Shown here: positions 34,039 through 40,795 of the stretch, in pieces
How positions within the stretch are numbered: position 1 is the stretch's first letter
How the letters are laid out: the number at the start of each line of letters is the position of its first letter
From: Mesorhizobium sp. LSJC280B00
GTDB lineage: Bacteria > Pseudomonadota > Alphaproteobacteria > Rhizobiales > Rhizobiaceae
Assembly (NCBI RefSeq): GCF_000502835.1
Contig: NZ_AYVL01000014.1
Span: 112,672-176,671 of the forward strand
Reading direction: 5' to 3'
DNA length: 64,000 bases
The notes under the pieces: model-generated
What the model was told of the DNA's origin: nothing
Seen by the model: the letters and a program-made list of their open reading frames with translations, nothing else
Database searches by the model: none
Translations under genes and position numbers: made by a program

Positions 34039-36177
34039 ATGCCCGTTGCCGGTATCAAGGCTGGTTCGTCCGTCCGCCGACGGAGGGCCAAAGGCGTTGG
34101 TCAGCCGCAACCTATTGAAGACGAGCTGCGCGAACAGAACGAGCGTTTTTCGGCAGCGGTCGAGAACATGTCGCATGGCCTGTGCATGTTCGATGCCGAT
34201 GAACGGATGATCATCTGCAACAGGAACTACATCAGCATCTTTCGCCTCGACGCCGAAGTGGTGCGGCCCGGCATCCGGTTTTTCGACATCCTCCAGCACA
34301 GCGTGGATATCGGCATCGCCTCGCAAAGCGCTGAGCAACTCTATGCCATCCGCAAGCCCTATATCGACCAGGCAAAACCTTCCACCTATGAGGAAACGCT
34401 TGCAGACGGGCGTATCGTCAACATTTCGCACCGGCCGCTGGCGTCAGGCGGTTGGGTATCGATCTACGAGGACATCACCGAGCAACGGCGCGCCGAGCAG
34501 GAGTTGAAGGAGCAGCACCGCCGTTTCGACGCGGCACTTGCCAACATGTCGCAAGGCCTTTTGATGTACGATGCGGATGGCAAGCTGATCGTCCGCAACG
34601 AACGTTTCCTGGAACTTTATCATGTCAGGCCGGCCGACTTCCCGCTTGGCATGAGTCACCATGATGCGTTCAAGCGGCTGCTGGAACTGGGCATTTATAC
34701 AAAGCTCGACCCCGACAGCGAAATCTCGCAAATCGAAGCCTGCCTGCGGGCGGGGAAAACACACGTAACGCATCGCCATCTCGCTGACGGCAGGACGCTG
34801 CTGGTTGCGCGCCGGCCGATGAGCGGCGGCGGCTGGGTCGCGACGTTCGACGACGTCACCGAGCGCAGGCGTGTGGAAGAGCGCATGACCCATCTTGCGC
34901 ACCACGACACACTGACGAACCTGCCCAATCGCTCGATGCTTCGCGAACGGCTCGACCAAGCCCTGAGTGAGACGAGAGACGGATCGCTGGCGATATTCTC
35001 GCTCGACCTCGATCACTTCAAGGCGGTCAACGACACTTGGGGCCATCCTTCCGGCGACTGGCTGCTGAAATGCGTGGCCGAACGGCTGCAACGGTGCCTG
35101 CGCAATGAAACGGACGTTGTCTCCCGCTTCGGCGGCGACGAATTCGTCATCATCCAGTTCAATCTCAAAAGCCCGGGCGACGCGGAAAAGCTGGCCAAAC
35201 GCATCGTCGAGATCATCGGAAAGCCGTTTCGCGACAAAAGACACGACATGCGTGTCGGCATCAGTCTCGGCATCGCGCTGTTTCCGAATGACGGCAAGGA
35301 CGCCGACACTTTGCTGAAAAATGCCGATATGGCGCTCTATCGGGCAAAGAGCGAAGGGCGCAACCTGTACCGCTTCTTCGAACCAGCCATGGACGCGATG
35401 GTGCGGGCACGCCGGGCGCTCGAAATCGATCTCAGGGCAGCGCTGTCGCGCCGGGAATTCGAGCTGGATTTCCAGCCGATCATGAACATCGCCTCCGGCG
35501 AAATCGTCGGTGCCGAAGCCTTGATGCGCTGGCGTTCGCCGGTGCGCGGCCTGGTACGGCCGGACGACTTCATTCCGGCCGCCGAGGAGACCGGGCTGAT
35601 CGTGCCGCTTGGAGAATGGGCGCTGCGAAAAGCCTGCACGACCGCGGCAGGCTGGGCGGCTTGGCGGATCGCAGTCAATGTCTCCGCTGTGCAGATCAAA
35701 AGCGGTACCTTTGCCCGCAGCGTTATCTCGGCACTGGCGTTCTCGGGCGTGCCGGCCAACCGGCTTGAACTGGAAATCACCGAAACCGTGCTGATGGACG
35801 AGAGCGATCTGGTGCTCAAGACACTCAGGCAGCTACGCGATCTGGGCGTCCGCATCGCGCTGGACGATTTCGGCACCGGCTATTCGTCGCTGGGCTACCT
35901 CAGGCGCTTTCCCGTCGACAAGATCAAGATCGATCGCTCTTTCACCCGTGACATCGACAGTCGCGATACCGCGGCGATCGTGCGCACCATCATCGGGCTT
36001 GGCGCACAGCTGGGCATCACCGTCACCGCCGAAGGTGTCGAGACCGAAGCGCAGCTTGAATTCCTGCAAAAGGAGGGTTGTGTCGAGGCCCAGGGCTATT
36101 TGATCGGGGTGCCGTCAAAGGCGTCGGACATTAATCGGCTGCTGAAGTCGAGCGCGACGATCCGGCAGTCCGGCTAA
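34039..36177 (+). CDS. PAS-PAS-GGDEF-EAL cyclic-di-GMP signalling protein
   Basis: A 712-residue soluble protein. Two PAS_7-type sensor domains occupy residues 25-150 and 155-280, then GGDEF (365-369) and EAL (493-495, EALMRW), with DDFGTGYSSLGYL at 609-621. Both catalytic signatures are intact, so it could make and break cyclic-di-GMP. The inhibitory site expected five residues before GGDEF reads NETD in place of RxxD, so product inhibition is probably lost. No membrane segment is seen. Confidence 0.93.
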   Translation: MPVAGIKAGSSVRRRRAKGVGQPQPIEDELREQNERFSAAVENMSHGLCMFDADERMIICNRNYISIFRLDAEVVRPGIRFFDILQHSVDIGIASQSAEQLYAIRKPYIDQAKPSTYEETLADGRIVNISHRPLASGGWVSIYEDITEQRRAEQELKEQHRRFDAALANMSQGLLMYDADGKLIVRNERFLELYHVRPADFPLGMSHHDAFKRLLELGIYTKLDPDSEISQIEACLRAGKTHVTHRHLADGRTLLVARRPMSGGGWVATFDDVTERRRVEERMTHLAHHDTLTNLPNRSMLRERLDQALSETRDGSLAIFSLDLDHFKAVNDTWGHPSGDWLLKCVAERLQRCLRNETDVVSRFGGDEFVIIQFNLKSPGDAEKLAKRIVEIIGKPFRDKRHDMRVGISLGIALFPNDGKDADTLLKNADMALYRAKSEGRNLYRFFEPAMDAMVRARRALEIDLRAALSRREFELDFQPIMNIASGEIVGAEALMRWRSPVRGLVRPDDFIPAAEETGLIVPLGEWALRKACTTAAGWAAWRIAVNVSAVQIKSGTFARSVISALAFSGVPANRLELEITETVLMDESDLVLKTLRQLRDLGVRIALDDFGTGYSSLGYLRRFPVDKIKIDRSFTRDIDSRDTAAIVRTIIGLGAQLGITVTAEGVETEAQLEFLQKEGCVEAQGYLIGVPSKASDINRLLKSSATIRQSG

Positions 36178-36600: not shown

Positions 36601-38064
36601 TTATCGCCCCGGCCGGTCCAGCCGCTCCAGGAACCACTGCGTCAGCCGCACCCAGACCTCGTCTTTTTCGCCGGAGTCTTCCCAGCCGTGGTCGAGGTTG
36701 GGGTTGTCGTTGACCTCGATGACGAAGACGCCGTCCCTGGTTTCCTTGAGGTCGACGCCGTAGAGGCCGTCGCCAATGCAGCGCGCCGCGCTCACCGCCG
36801 TCTCGACGACATGGGCCGGTGCTTCCTTCAGGGTGAAGGTCTTGATGCCGCCCTGGTCGGGCTTGCCGTTGGCCTTATGATTGACGATCTGCCAATGTTT
36901 CTTGGCCATCAGATAATGAACGGCAAACAAGGGCTGGCCGCCGAGGACACCGACACGCCAGTCATATTCCGTCGGAATGAATTTTTGCGCGATCAGGAGG
37001 TCGGAATCCTCCAGCCATTCGGTTGCGAGCGTCTTCAACTCTTCAAAGGTGCCGCATTTCTTGACGCCGCGCGAAAACGAGGAGTCCGGGATCTTCAGCA
37101 CCAGCGGGAAGCCCAGCGTCTGTGCCGCAACGTCCAGGTCCGAGGTGCCGGCAATCATCACCGTCGGCGGCACCGGTACCTTGTTGTAGGTCATCAGCTC
37201 GTTGAGATAGACCTTGTTGGTGCAGCGGATCATCGACAGCGGATCGTCGATGACCGGCATGCCTTCCTGCTGGGCGCGGCGGGCAAAGCGGTAGGTGTGG
37301 TTGGAGATCGAAGTGGTCTCGCGGATGAACAGCGCGTCGTAGTTGGCGAGCTTGGCCAGATCCCGCTTGGTGATCGGCTCGATTTCGACGCCCATCTTTT
37401 CAGCGATCTTGGCCCAGTGGCGCAGCGACGAAATCTCCGACGGCGGCAGTTCCTCATGCGGATCGACCAGCGTTGCGAAAGTGTAGCGCGCCGGCGTGCG
37501 GCCCTTGGTGTCGCGCCACTCGCGATTGGTGTAGGTCTCCAGGCACTGGAGAAAGTGCGTTTCCTCGTCCTCGGTCATCCTGGCCAGGGGATGGAACCCG
37601 ATCTTGCGGATCGAGGCCCATTCGGCGCTGTCCCTGATGTGGAGCTCGAGCGCCGGGGCACGGAACCAGTCGAACAGAAGTTTTGCGAAGCGGTCCCATA
37701 TCCTGGATGGTCCGATGCCGAAGAAGATGCAGACCTTCTGCGGAAAAGCGCCACCCAGGTCCTTGCGGCACTTGTTGAGTGCGAGTTCGAGTTCCGGCAA
37801 CGCGTGCTCATAGAGCTTGCGTTCTGACAGGTCGATCATCGTTTCGACCGTCGGGATGACCTTATGGCCGCGCGAACCGGCAAGCAGCGACGCGTAATAG
37901 CCGCGGCTCTGGTAGCCATAATTGTTCGACAGGTTGATGACCTTCGGCCGCTGACCGCGAAACAGTGCCGGATGGGCAAGGTAGTCGCGATTGGTGATGA
38001 TCTTGTGCGGCGTCGCCACCTGGTCGAGATCGTTCTGCCGGCCGGTAAGGATGACCCAGGTCAT
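36601..38064 (-). CDS. RimK-like ATP-grasp ligase
   Basis: A 487-residue protein. The N-terminal 200 residues are unique (MTWVILTGRQNDL start), followed by an ATP-grasp domain of the RimK alpha-L-glutamate ligase branch from about residue 270. Visible motifs are IPDSSFSRGVKK (ATP-binding loop) and IEVNDNPNLDHG (metal ligands). RimK-type enzymes join amino acids to carboxyl groups of proteins or small molecules. The start overlaps the stop of the GNAT/C39 gene by ATGA, so the two function together. Substrate unknown. Confidence 0.88.
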   Translation of the reverse strand: MTWVILTGRQNDLDQVATPHKIITNRDYLAHPALFRGQRPKVINLSNNYGYQSRGYYASLLAGSRGHKVIPTVETMIDLSERKLYEHALPELELALNKCRKDLGGAFPQKVCIFFGIGPSRIWDRFAKLLFDWFRAPALELHIRDSAEWASIRKIGFHPLARMTEDEETHFLQCLETYTNREWRDTKGRTPARYTFATLVDPHEELPPSEISSLRHWAKIAEKMGVEIEPITKRDLAKLANYDALFIRETTSISNHTYRFARRAQQEGMPVIDDPLSMIRCTNKVYLNELMTYNKVPVPPTVMIAGTSDLDVAAQTLGFPLVLKIPDSSFSRGVKKCGTFEELKTLATEWLEDSDLLIAQKFIPTEYDWRVGVLGGQPLFAVHYLMAKKHWQIVNHKANGKPDQGGIKTFTLKEAPAHVVETAVSAARCIGDGLYGVDLKETRDGVFVIEVNDNPNLDHGWEDSGEKDEVWVRLTQWFLERLDRPGR

Positions 38065-39167
38065 TGGCTGTCGCGCTTTCCGAGAGTGATGGCGGCGCGC
38101 AATCCGTCGCGGCCGAATTGCGCCATGTTCATGAAGATGCCGTAAGGCACGGGAATGTTGGCAGCATCGAGGATCGTCTCCTGCCGCTCGTCCTCGACCC
38201 AAGGGTCGTGGATCAGGATATGATCGCCGTCGTCACCGATGGCCAATACCCAGTGCGGAACCTTCTTGCCGAACATCAGGAAGCCGCTGATCAGGACCAG
38301 CACCAGTTTTCCCTCTGCGATCGCGGTGCGAATGTCGTCAAGCCCGAATGAACGGTAATTCACCGGGATACCGTAAAGTTCCGCGCGGCGGCGAAAGTCG
38401 ACCTGCGCCAGCTCCATGACCCGGCGCTTGTCCTCGCTGCGCACCGACTGCAGGAACAGCGCGCCGTAGAAGGAGACATAGATCTCAGCAGCAAGCCCGC
38501 TCTCATAGCCGGCGACGGCCAGCCCGAACGGTTCGCAGCCGCCCGGCCCCGACATCATGAAAACGGTCGTCGCCTCACGCCACAGCCTGATTTCCATAAC
38601 AGGGTCCGGCACGAATCCGGGGTCGAAGTTAGCCATCGCCATCATCAGGCAGCATGGTCCGCAGGTGAATTCGCAAGTCTGCTGATAAAACGGCACTTCG
38701 GTGGCGACCGGAATGTCGCCGCGCAAGGTCTTTTCATAGCGCAGCGCCGTGGCGCCGTCCTCGTAATAGTCCGGTTCGCGGCCGATCTTACGGTAGCCGC
38801 TCTGCTCGTAGATCTGGATGGCGCGCGGATTGTCTTCGCGGACTTCCAAACGAAGCATCATGCGGCCGTGCTCGAAAGCGGCGGCTTCAGCCTCTTCCAG
38901 CAGCAGGCGGCCAACGCCGCGGCCGCCGAAAAATGGACCGACGGCGATCGAATAGAGCCGCGCGACGCCGCTGCCCTTACGAAACAGCACGACCGCATAG
39001 CCGGCGACGTGGCCATCGTTCTCGCCAACCAGCAGTTCGGCGGTGTCGCGTTCGATCAGTTGGCGAAAGGAGCGGCGAGAAATGCGGTCGCTCGAGAAAA
39101 CAGCTTTTTCGATGGCGGCGAGGTCATCGACGTCGGACGCGCGGGCCTTGCGAATCTCGGCAGGCAT
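38061..39167 (-). CDS. GNAT acetyltransferase fused to C39-like peptidase
   Basis: A 368-residue fusion. Residues 1-150 are a GNAT domain with the acetyl-CoA loop RGVGRLL (83-89). Residues 155-368 are a papain-like domain of the C39 family. The probable nucleophile is Cys169 in TCGPCC, preceded by Gln163, with His305 (PHWVLAIG) and Asp321 (HDP). There is no transporter part or signal peptide, so it acts in the cytoplasm. It is coupled to the RimK-like gene, suggesting a peptide made by the ligase and trimmed or acetylated here. Confidence 0.88.
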   Translation of the reverse strand: MPAEIRKARASDVDDLAAIEKAVFSSDRISRRSFRQLIERDTAELLVGENDGHVAGYAVVLFRKGSGVARLYSIAVGPFFGGRGVGRLLLEEAEAAAFEHGRMMLRLEVREDNPRAIQIYEQSGYRKIGREPDYYEDGATALRYEKTLRGDIPVATEVPFYQQTCEFTCGPCCLMMAMANFDPGFVPDPVMEIRLWREATTVFMMSGPGGCEPFGLAVAGYESGLAAEIYVSFYGALFLQSVRSEDKRRVMELAQVDFRRRAELYGIPVNYRSFGLDDIRTAIAEGKLVLVLISGFLMFGKKVPHWVLAIGDDGDHILIHDPWVEDERQETILDAANIPVPYGIFMNMAQFGRDGLRAAITLGKRDSQ

Positions 39168-39376: not shown

Positions 39377-40171
39377 TCAGCTTTTCAAGCCCGCCAGAAG
39401 CTGGCCATAGGCGCTCTTGGCCACCGCGGCCAGCTGCTCGTGCGGCAGCGATCCGACGACGGCGCAGCCATAACCCTTGTCCAGCCAGTAGACGGCCTCA
39501 GGACCATTTTCCTCCGACCCATAGGTGCCTTTGGCCTTGGCCGCCGATTCGGCGATTACGAAGAGCGAAATGCGCTCGCCCTTGTCGTCCTCGTAAAGCA
39601 GCATCGCGGCCTTGCCCTGGCCGGCAGGCAGTAGCCGGCCACCGACCAGTTGGAATCCCTGCGCCGCCAGATCCGGCGCGACCAGCTTCAAACCCACCTG
39701 GTTAGACAGCCAGTTCTGCAAATGATCCTTGTCTCTTGCCGGCACTTCCACAGCATGCCGCTTTTCAGCGGCATAGATGACGTGGGCGGCAATCGCCTCT
39801 TCGGCAAGCTGGTCCTCGGCCGTATTTTCCAGGCCGAGGCCGCCGATGCCGGCAAGATAGCCGCCAGCACCGCCAATCACCAGGATGGCGGCAGCGGCGG
39901 CCGCAAGCCACCAACGCGTGCGCGACGGCGACGCTTTGACCACCGGCGCCTCGCCGAGCACCACCTTATTCAGCCGCACCGGGATGGGTTCGTCCAGCAC
40001 GCCGTTAAAGGCCGCGCGCAACGCTGCCCGGTCGGCGGCGTAGCGTGCGCTCTTGGCCTTCATCTCGGCATTGGCCTCGAGCCATGCCTCATAGGCCGTC
40101 CGCTCGTCGCCTGGCAACTCGCCATCGAGAGCCATGTGGATATCGCGTTCGGAGAAATCGCGCCGGCTCAT
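39377..40171 (-). CDS. Anti-sigma factor (membrane-anchored)
   Basis: A 264-residue protein with an N-terminal cytoplasmic sigma-binding part (MSRRDFSERDIHMALDGELP). One membrane helix at about residues 87-110 (WWLAAAAAAILVIGGAGG) is followed by a periplasmic domain of 150 residues. The start overlaps the stop of the ECF sigma gene by ATGA. No HxxxCxxC zinc motif is seen, so it is not the ZAS type. It probably holds the sigma factor inactive until an envelope signal. Confidence 0.85.
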   Translation of the reverse strand: MSRRDFSERDIHMALDGELPGDERTAYEAWLEANAEMKAKSARYAADRAALRAAFNGVLDEPIPVRLNKVVLGEAPVVKASPSRTRWWLAAAAAAILVIGGAGGYLAGIGGLGLENTAEDQLAEEAIAAHVIYAAEKRHAVEVPARDKDHLQNWLSNQVGLKLVAPDLAAQGFQLVGGRLLPAGQGKAAMLLYEDDKGERISLFVIAESAAKAKGTYGSEENGPEAVYWLDKGYGCAVVGSLPHEQLAAVAKSAYGQLLAGLKS

Positions 40172-40713
40172 TTCTCGACGATCCTTATCGAGCGGCGGCG
40201 CGCGGTGTCGTCCAAAAGCCCGCGCAACTCCTCACGCCCGCGCGCGATGCGCGACATCAAAGTGCCGGCGGGGACTCCAAGGATGTTGGCGGCTTCGGCA
40301 TAGGAAAACCCTTCGATGGCGACCATCACAAGGGCCGCGCGCCGGTCTGGGCTGATCGCCTGCAGAGCCTCGACGATCTCGCGCGAGGCGATGCTCTCGA
40401 CCTGCTCGGCGGGTGCTGCCTGCGCCTCGCTCGCCTCCAGCGGCAGCATCGCTGCCTCGCCACGCCGGTTCACCTTGCGCATCTGGTCGATGAATAAATG
40501 ATGCATGATCGTAAACAGCCATCTCCTGGGGCTTTCTCCTGTCTGCCAATTGTCGAGCCGCACAAGTGCCCGCTCGAGACAATCCTGGACGAGATCGTCG
40601 GCGGAATCGCGGTCGCGCAACAGCGAGCGTGCATAGCGGCGCAGACGCGGTATTTCACCAAGGATTGCTGCCTTCTTTTCGTCCATGACCGCTGGTTCTG
40701 GAGCCCTGTCCAT
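40168..40713 (-). CDS. ECF-type RNA polymerase sigma factor
   Basis: A 181-residue group 4 sigma factor. Region 2 contains LRRYARSLLRDRDSADDLVQ and region 4 contains FSYAEAANILGVPAGTLMSR, a typical helix-turn-helix. No region 3 is present. ATG 40713 is chosen, and 40686 (MDEKKAA) is possible. It is coupled to the anti-sigma gene. A candidate ECF-type promoter lies 80 bases upstream, consistent with autoregulation. Confidence 0.92.
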   Translation of the reverse strand: MDRAPEPAVMDEKKAAILGEIPRLRRYARSLLRDRDSADDLVQDCLERALVRLDNWQTGESPRRWLFTIMHHLFIDQMRKVNRRGEAAMLPLEASEAQAAPAEQVESIASREIVEALQAISPDRRAALVMVAIEGFSYAEAANILGVPAGTLMSRIARGREELRGLLDDTARRRSIRIVEK

Positions 40714-40795
40714 GGTGATTGAACGCGCCTTCGCGGCGCGGCGCAAGCGGCCAGCGCGAAGCGGTCCGCCGCCCCGGTCACCCAAGCAACTGAAT

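Follow-up and report, generated by a model that had tools for sequence, protein, structure and literature searches.

A RimK-type ligase gene that overlaps a gene joining an acetyltransferase to a papain-like domain raises the question of what the two proteins make together and what each domain contributes. In the window (the whole stretch of Mesorhizobium sp. LSJC280B00 DNA analysed here, 64,000 nucleotides), both genes lie on the minus strand. The upstream partner (38061..39167) encodes a 368-aa fusion of a GNAT and a DUF3335 papain-like domain, and its stop overlaps by ATGA (38061..38064) the start of the gene for a 487-aa RLAN and RimK-type ATP-grasp ligase (36601..38064). The ligase frame runs from an ATG at 38064 to a stop at 36601; the longest ORF begins at a TTG at 38202, and the ATG at 38064 is the start that agrees with the homologues. 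This arrangement, a 487-residue RimK-type ligase overlapping a 368-residue GNAT/papain gene, is the one described in an earlier sequence-only reading of this DNA, and the ORFs and Pfam agree with it. A gap of 209 bases separates the fusion gene from upstream genes for an ECF sigma factor and a putative anti-sigma factor (39377-40785, also minus strand); downstream of the pair lies a PAS-PAS-GGDEF-EAL gene (34039-36177) in convergent orientation. Promoter-like sites over the pair were about as frequent as in shuffled sequences (1 versus 0.7), terminator-like sites numbered 7 against 3.5 in shuffles, and no RNA element reached the Rfam gathering scores within the window. A role in anti-phage defence was rejected, PADLOC giving no match at E 0.01.

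The ligase consists of two parts. Pfam placed RLAN at residues 26-172 (37549..37989; PF14401, E 3e-36, 124.6 bits against a gathering score of 25) and RimK at residues 283-459 (E 2e-8, 34.4 bits against 21), so that the protein is an RLAN ATP-grasp ligase; the N-terminal 200 residues, left unplaced in the sequence-only reading, are accounted for by the RLAN domain. The ATP-grasp residues K284, K324, D438, E450, and N452 are identical in all 56 ligases compared. In the structural model (mean pLDDT 83.6), residues 194-484 (36613..37485) form a complete RimK-like part, which aligned with RimK, LysX, and ArgX over 262-272 residues (Z 25-27 and rmsd 2.5-3.0 among the nine best matches) and with D-Ala-D-Ala ligases at Z about 22. 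Because these residues alone align with whole RimK, LysX, and ArgX chains, RLAN is an extra domain. The ligase missed the cut-offs of the RimK S6 ligase models (TIGR00768, 81.8 of 143.4 bits; PRK10446, 23.5 of 331 bits), and it also matched R2K_3 at 31.6 bits (cut-off 26.3), compared to 124.6 bits for RLAN. In a PDB sequence search at E 0.01, the matches were confined to the GNAT and ATP-grasp parts of the two proteins, and the same parts fill the matches listed in the fold searches of both models.

The fusion protein carries Acetyltransf_1 at residues 32-125 (E 1e-16) and DUF3335, named 'Peptidase_C39 like', at residues 158-362 (38082..38696; PF11814, E 1e-75); the latter match is full-length, covering profile positions 1-205 of 206 with 254 bits against 25. 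In the model (mean pLDDT 91.5), the GNAT domain (residues 1-150, 38718..39167) has a protein N-alpha-acetyltransferase fold and is closest to Ard1 and RimI (Z 22-23), with an rmsd of 1.5 over 147 residues for 4pv6 and of 1.7 over 145 residues for 2cnm (Z 22.7). Although the score of 81.3 bits falls short of the rimI equivalog cut-off (TIGR01575, 86.4 bits), the fold is alike, and the conserved E108 (60 of 60 homologues) and Y120 (57 of 60) are aligned with Glu and Tyr residues of RimI, which we take to be catalytic in that enzyme. In the papain-like domain, Gln163, Cys169 (codon 38661..38663), and His305 (38253..38255) are invariant in 42 homologous domains, and the third catalytic position, Asp321 (38205..38207), is occupied by D in 35 domains and by E in the other 7. 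The intact Cys169, His305, and Asp321 named in the sequence-only reading are therefore borne out, and its concern that Cys169 and His305 might fail to align did not materialise. Its description of the domain as C39-type holds as far as the papain-like character goes; the family is DUF3335 and not that of the leader-cleaving C39 peptidases, since PF03412 was absent from the matches of the fusion protein at E 0.001. PF13529 scored 21.1 bits, below its cut-off of 24, and Pfam found no transporter domain in the protein. A loop at residues 204-211 (38535-38558) contains G207, G209, and G210, each present in 41-42 of the 42 homologues, and residues 204-206 have the lowest confidence of the model; this is perhaps a mobile active-site loop.

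Whether the two genes belong together was read from 398 genomes of the window's phylum. RLAN occurred in 72 of these genomes (75 places) and DUF3335 in 58 (61 places), with 57 genomes holding both, and 55 of the 61 DUF3335 places lay less than 3 kb from an RLAN (Fisher value 1e-53, which takes no account of kinship). The pairing exceeds chance, and the genes do not sit apart in most genomes, as they would have done had the sequence-only reading been mistaken on this point. DUF3335 stands before the ligase on the same strand, as in the window, at 29 places, divergent from it at 18, behind it at 5, and convergent at 3, the remaining 6 being unlinked. Since the linkage survives four gene orders, it is strong evidence for a joint function. 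The source genome itself has a single RLAN and a single DUF3335 in the profile search, and the next-best match of its GNAT domain in the same genome (self excluded) is 36% identical. The unlinked places comprise a pair in G197 and single ones in G193, G006, G008, and G274; those in G274 and G197 are second DUF3335 copies, whose N-terminal part gave no GNAT profile match. In the window's genus, second DUF3335 proteins (L084:7971-9065, L086:4133-5194, and L086:13189-14397) begin with another segment, some 150-190 aa long, and have no RLAN close by; some of the L086 neighbours resemble ABC transporter parts by eye. DUF3335 was also matched in Methanosarcina acetivorans, a control genome; RLAN was matched in none of the 14 control genomes.

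The more constant partner of the ligase proved to be the GNAT. The 61 loci read (60 fetched plus the window) contain 56 ligase genes, out of 75 RLAN places in all. Of these 56 ligases, 55 adjoin a GNAT from the same family, and the sole miss is G193, whose GNAT-C39 is on another contig. All 15 genomes with RLAN and no DUF3335 have a lone GNAT at the ligase, at most 1.4 kb away (G354). In two loci of one genus, L097 and L121, a GNAT precedes RLAN-ATP-grasp within a single fused protein, with a separate GNAT-C39 gene in convergent orientation. Among 80 named loci, which are the best 80 for one query and include 25 titled Pseudomonas, GNAT was present in 75, fused to C39 in 43 and alone in 32. 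The ligase has no adjacent GNAT in G193, L160, L166, L170, and L202; two further loci, L122 and L188, are uninformative on this point, as each starts at the end of a contig. L202 is a P. aeruginosa plasmid, in which the RLAN ligase lies near pagP, ggt, and a glutamate/aspartate transporter.

A lone GNAT might be a fusion broken by frameshift. This was rejected, because a DUF3335 fragment was found in none of the 51 lone-GNAT loci. On the ligase tree, the presence of C39 takes nine changes, at least seven of which are forced by well supported branches; on the tree of the short GNAT domain, which is poorly resolved, it takes four, at least two of them forced. These changes, together with the constancy of GNAT, point to repeated gain or loss of the protease. 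The pattern across genomes suggests that the fixed core is ligase and acetyltransferase and that the protease part comes and goes. Thus, when the sequence-only reading asked whether the fusion always sits beside this ligase, the answer is that the two are mostly linked, and that the constant pairing is one of ligase and GNAT to which the papain-like domain is optional. On both trees, the lone GNAT of G375 (L078:9410-10000) branches from within GNAT-C39 relatives, as if its protease domain had been lost recently, and its locus holds no DUF3335 fragment.

Other neighbours recur less widely. Clustering of the ORFs of at least 90 aa in the 61 loci gave no third gene common to all lineages at the threshold used; besides the pair, recurring clusters reach eight or fewer families, and DUF2817, an M14-like carboxypeptidase family, was noticed only in gaps. 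In eight named loci a gene stands between ligase and GNAT-C39, and all eight match the DUF2817 profile; their frames range from an overlap of 46 bases with GNAT-C39 to a gap of 7, approximate values as the frames were taken from the first start codon. Seven further profile matches in the other loci bring the total to 15 among the 142 loci searched, where DUF2817, as a third partner, lies at most 0.9 kb from the ligase or GNAT-C39; Pfam was run on 2 of these 15 genes. All 15 share H84, E87, H238, N138, R139, and E306 (HxxE, H, NR, E), a pattern that is presumably that of M14 carboxypeptidases. Long DUF2817 matches number 62 across the 398 genomes and fall in 50 of them, after 35 others with only short matches were set aside; none was found in the source genome in the profile search. 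The 25 RLAN genomes among these 50 hold 32 full-length DUF2817 places, of which 15 have RLAN or DUF3335 within 6 kb and 17 have neither. Since 13 of these 15 come from one family (f38), with 2 from another (f39), a binomial value for this proximity overstates independence; named loci from Methylophaga, Methylomicrobium, and others widen the range of lineages. DUF155 matched in 9 of the 142 loci by profile (L083, L089, L094, L110, L111, L113, L114, L175, and L185; Pfam was run on two), and the DUF155 genes around the pair are RMND1/Sif2-like. An ABC-type ATPase, identified by eye from one member, occurs in 8 of the 61 clustered loci at a median distance of 4.4 kb, 3 of them within 1 kb. Short ORFs with an ATG start (15-90 aa), taken from 141 loci up to 800 bases from the pair, yielded no lineage-spanning family among the 12 largest clusters, each of which holds at most 14 loci and is confined to like organisms or consists of pieces of genes such as DUF2817.

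The proposed functional parallel is N-acetylglutaminylglutamine synthetase, Ngg (TIGR03103), which acts with AsnO and an M42 peptidase. Ngg acetylates one glutamine and also joins a second to it (PMC8070244). Both systems combine a GNAT, a RimK-like ATP-grasp enzyme, and a peptidase, and both include a fused GNAT-ligase form, the order in L097 and L121 being equal to that of Ngg. In contrast to Ngg, the present pair scores below the TIGR03103 equivalog (19 bits versus 569 for the fusion protein, the ligase not being listed), has the extra RLAN domain, and has no amidotransferase beside it, and the peptidase of RLAN systems is cysteine-type, elsewhere M14-like, instead of M42. In G006, GNAT-C39, DUF2817, and DUF155 genes come after an NAGGN cluster (L083:1-10762) of amidotransferase, synthetase, and M42 peptidase, for which TIGR03104, TIGR03103, and TIGR03106 are each over the equivalog cut-off. 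The RLAN ligase of this genome is 2.1 Mb away and has its own lone GNAT, and 2 of the 3 genomes examined from the same family have DUF3335 and DUF2817. Such an NAGGN neighbourhood was seen in one of the nine genomes with both Ngg and RLAN; in the other eight, the systems are at least 250 kb apart on one contig (four genomes) or on different contigs (four). With Ngg over the cut-off in 36, RLAN in 72, and both in 9 of the 398 genomes (Fisher p 0.26), mutual exclusion was not found, nor was association, and the two systems look independent over genomes.

By analogy with Ngg, we tentatively propose that the pair forms a self-contained module for the non-ribosomal synthesis of a short N-acetyl-capped peptide or an amino-acid conjugate, a reading to which we give slightly less than an even chance. 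The GNAT domain would acetylate an alpha-amine, and the RLAN/ATP-grasp enzyme, having turned a carboxylate into an acyl phosphate, would couple it to an amino acid. Trimming or recycling of the product would fall to the papain-like domain attached to the GNAT and, in other lineages, also to the M14-like carboxypeptidase DUF2817. What the comparisons show is the domain content, the intact catalytic residues, the linkage, the constancy of GNAT, and the dispensability of the protease; the reactions, their order, and their substrates we infer, and the product would be small and cytoplasmic. The sequence-only reading had likewise supposed that the pair builds, trims, and acetylates a peptide with no dedicated transporter; that idea is still the best available, with the protease reduced to an optional extra. 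In its favour are the linkage in four orders, the constancy of GNAT, the L097 and L121 fusions, the folds of GNAT and ligase, DUF2817, the G006 cluster, the lone-GNAT loci that hold no DUF3335 remnant, and the want of a lineage-spanning short ORF family. Against it count the independence of Ngg and RLAN, the five ligase loci without GNAT, the lack of DUF2817 in the source genome, and the distribution of DUF2817 itself, 17 of 32 places being away from the pair and 13 of 15 near ones belonging to one family. In addition, the modelled GNAT fold is shared with enzymes that acetylate the N-termini of proteins and would suit a protein target equally.

That fold leads to the alternative that the pair writes and erases a protein tag, with the ligase adding amino acids to a protein C-terminus or side chain, the papain-like domain removing them, and the GNAT acetylating target or tag. 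RimK is known to add amino acids to ribosomal protein S6, and RimB to remove them. The modelled ligase is nearest to RimK, LysX, and ArgX, the GNAT to protein N-alpha-acetyltransferases, and a RimK paired with a peptidase that undoes its work has been described (PMC12239564), as have Rlo systems. However, the present pair has an RLAN domain, misses the RimK cut-offs as given above, and bears a cysteine peptidase-like domain fused to GNAT where RimB is a retropepsin; no fixed target gene recurs beside it in the clustering of the 61 loci (ORFs of at least 90 aa), and the ligase stays while the peptidase is often missing. We regard a protein tag as rather unlikely, though a serious competitor to the acetyl-capped conjugate. 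The papain-like domain might instead be an acyl- or peptidyl-transferase, comparable to phytochelatin synthase or BtrH, that passes the ligase-made group on to a final acceptor. The superfamily includes such transferases (PMC10318531), the domain is tethered to an acetyltransferase, and the loop at residues 204-211, least certain in the model at its first three residues, is strongly conserved. Hydrolysis and transfer look alike in the present data, but as the domain is optional across loci, it is not an obligate last step everywhere, and we hold this reading to be improbable.

More remote still is a RiPP of the graspetide kind, in which the ATP-grasp enzyme would cross-link a ribosomal precursor, the GNAT acetylate it, and the C39-like domain remove the leader. 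Graspetide clusters may contain ATP-grasp, GNAT, and peptidase genes, and the C39 leader peptidases share with the fusion protein the papain-like Cys, His, and Asp and the preceding Gln. Those peptidases belong to another Pfam family (PF03412), however; the fusion protein has no transporter domain, and no linked precursor spanning lineages was seen among the 12 largest short-ORF clusters. We consider a RiPP very improbable. In descending order, we thus place the acetyl-capped peptide, the protein tag, the transferase, and the RiPP, what remains falling to other roles such as degradation or detoxification.

RLAN was reportedly described by Iyer et al. in 2009 beside GNAT-DUF3335 genes. The RLAN-RimK and GNAT-DUF3335 families (PF14401 and PF11814) have the same domains and the same fusion as the present pair. 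Since Pfam names both families, and since DUF3335 proteins are said to be often GNAT-fused in a passage citing Iyer et al. 2009 (PMC10318531), the pair belongs to a kind that is known but uncharacterised. A similar scheme, peptide ligation with capping by a GNAT acyl group, has been proposed for R2K ATP-grasp operons that include a GNAT (PMC4431377); those ligases are of other ATP-grasp families. Other peptide-ligase operons have also been described (PMC2922099). Our literature search returned no paper naming the product of RLAN ligases or treating an RLAN/RimK-like ligase with a papain-like or C39 gene, and, for DUF2817, a single paper whose title points to a different topic. The constancy of GNAT and the DUF2817 and DUF155 partners are new relative to the published passages compared.

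It is conceivable, if doubtful, that these loci represent an unrecognised but widely distributed class of non-ribosomal, N-acetylated peptides with a fixed GNAT and RLAN core, whose turnover would be set by interchangeable cysteine- and M14-type peptidases and which would be a second, independent solution to the osmolyte role of NAGGN. RLAN ligases occur in about a fifth of the genomes sampled. With GNAT constant and the protease accessory, the target of a search becomes an acetyl-capped conjugate from two enzymes, and strains with a lone GNAT, such as those of the Dyella and Rhodanobacter loci, offer a simpler, protease-free system.
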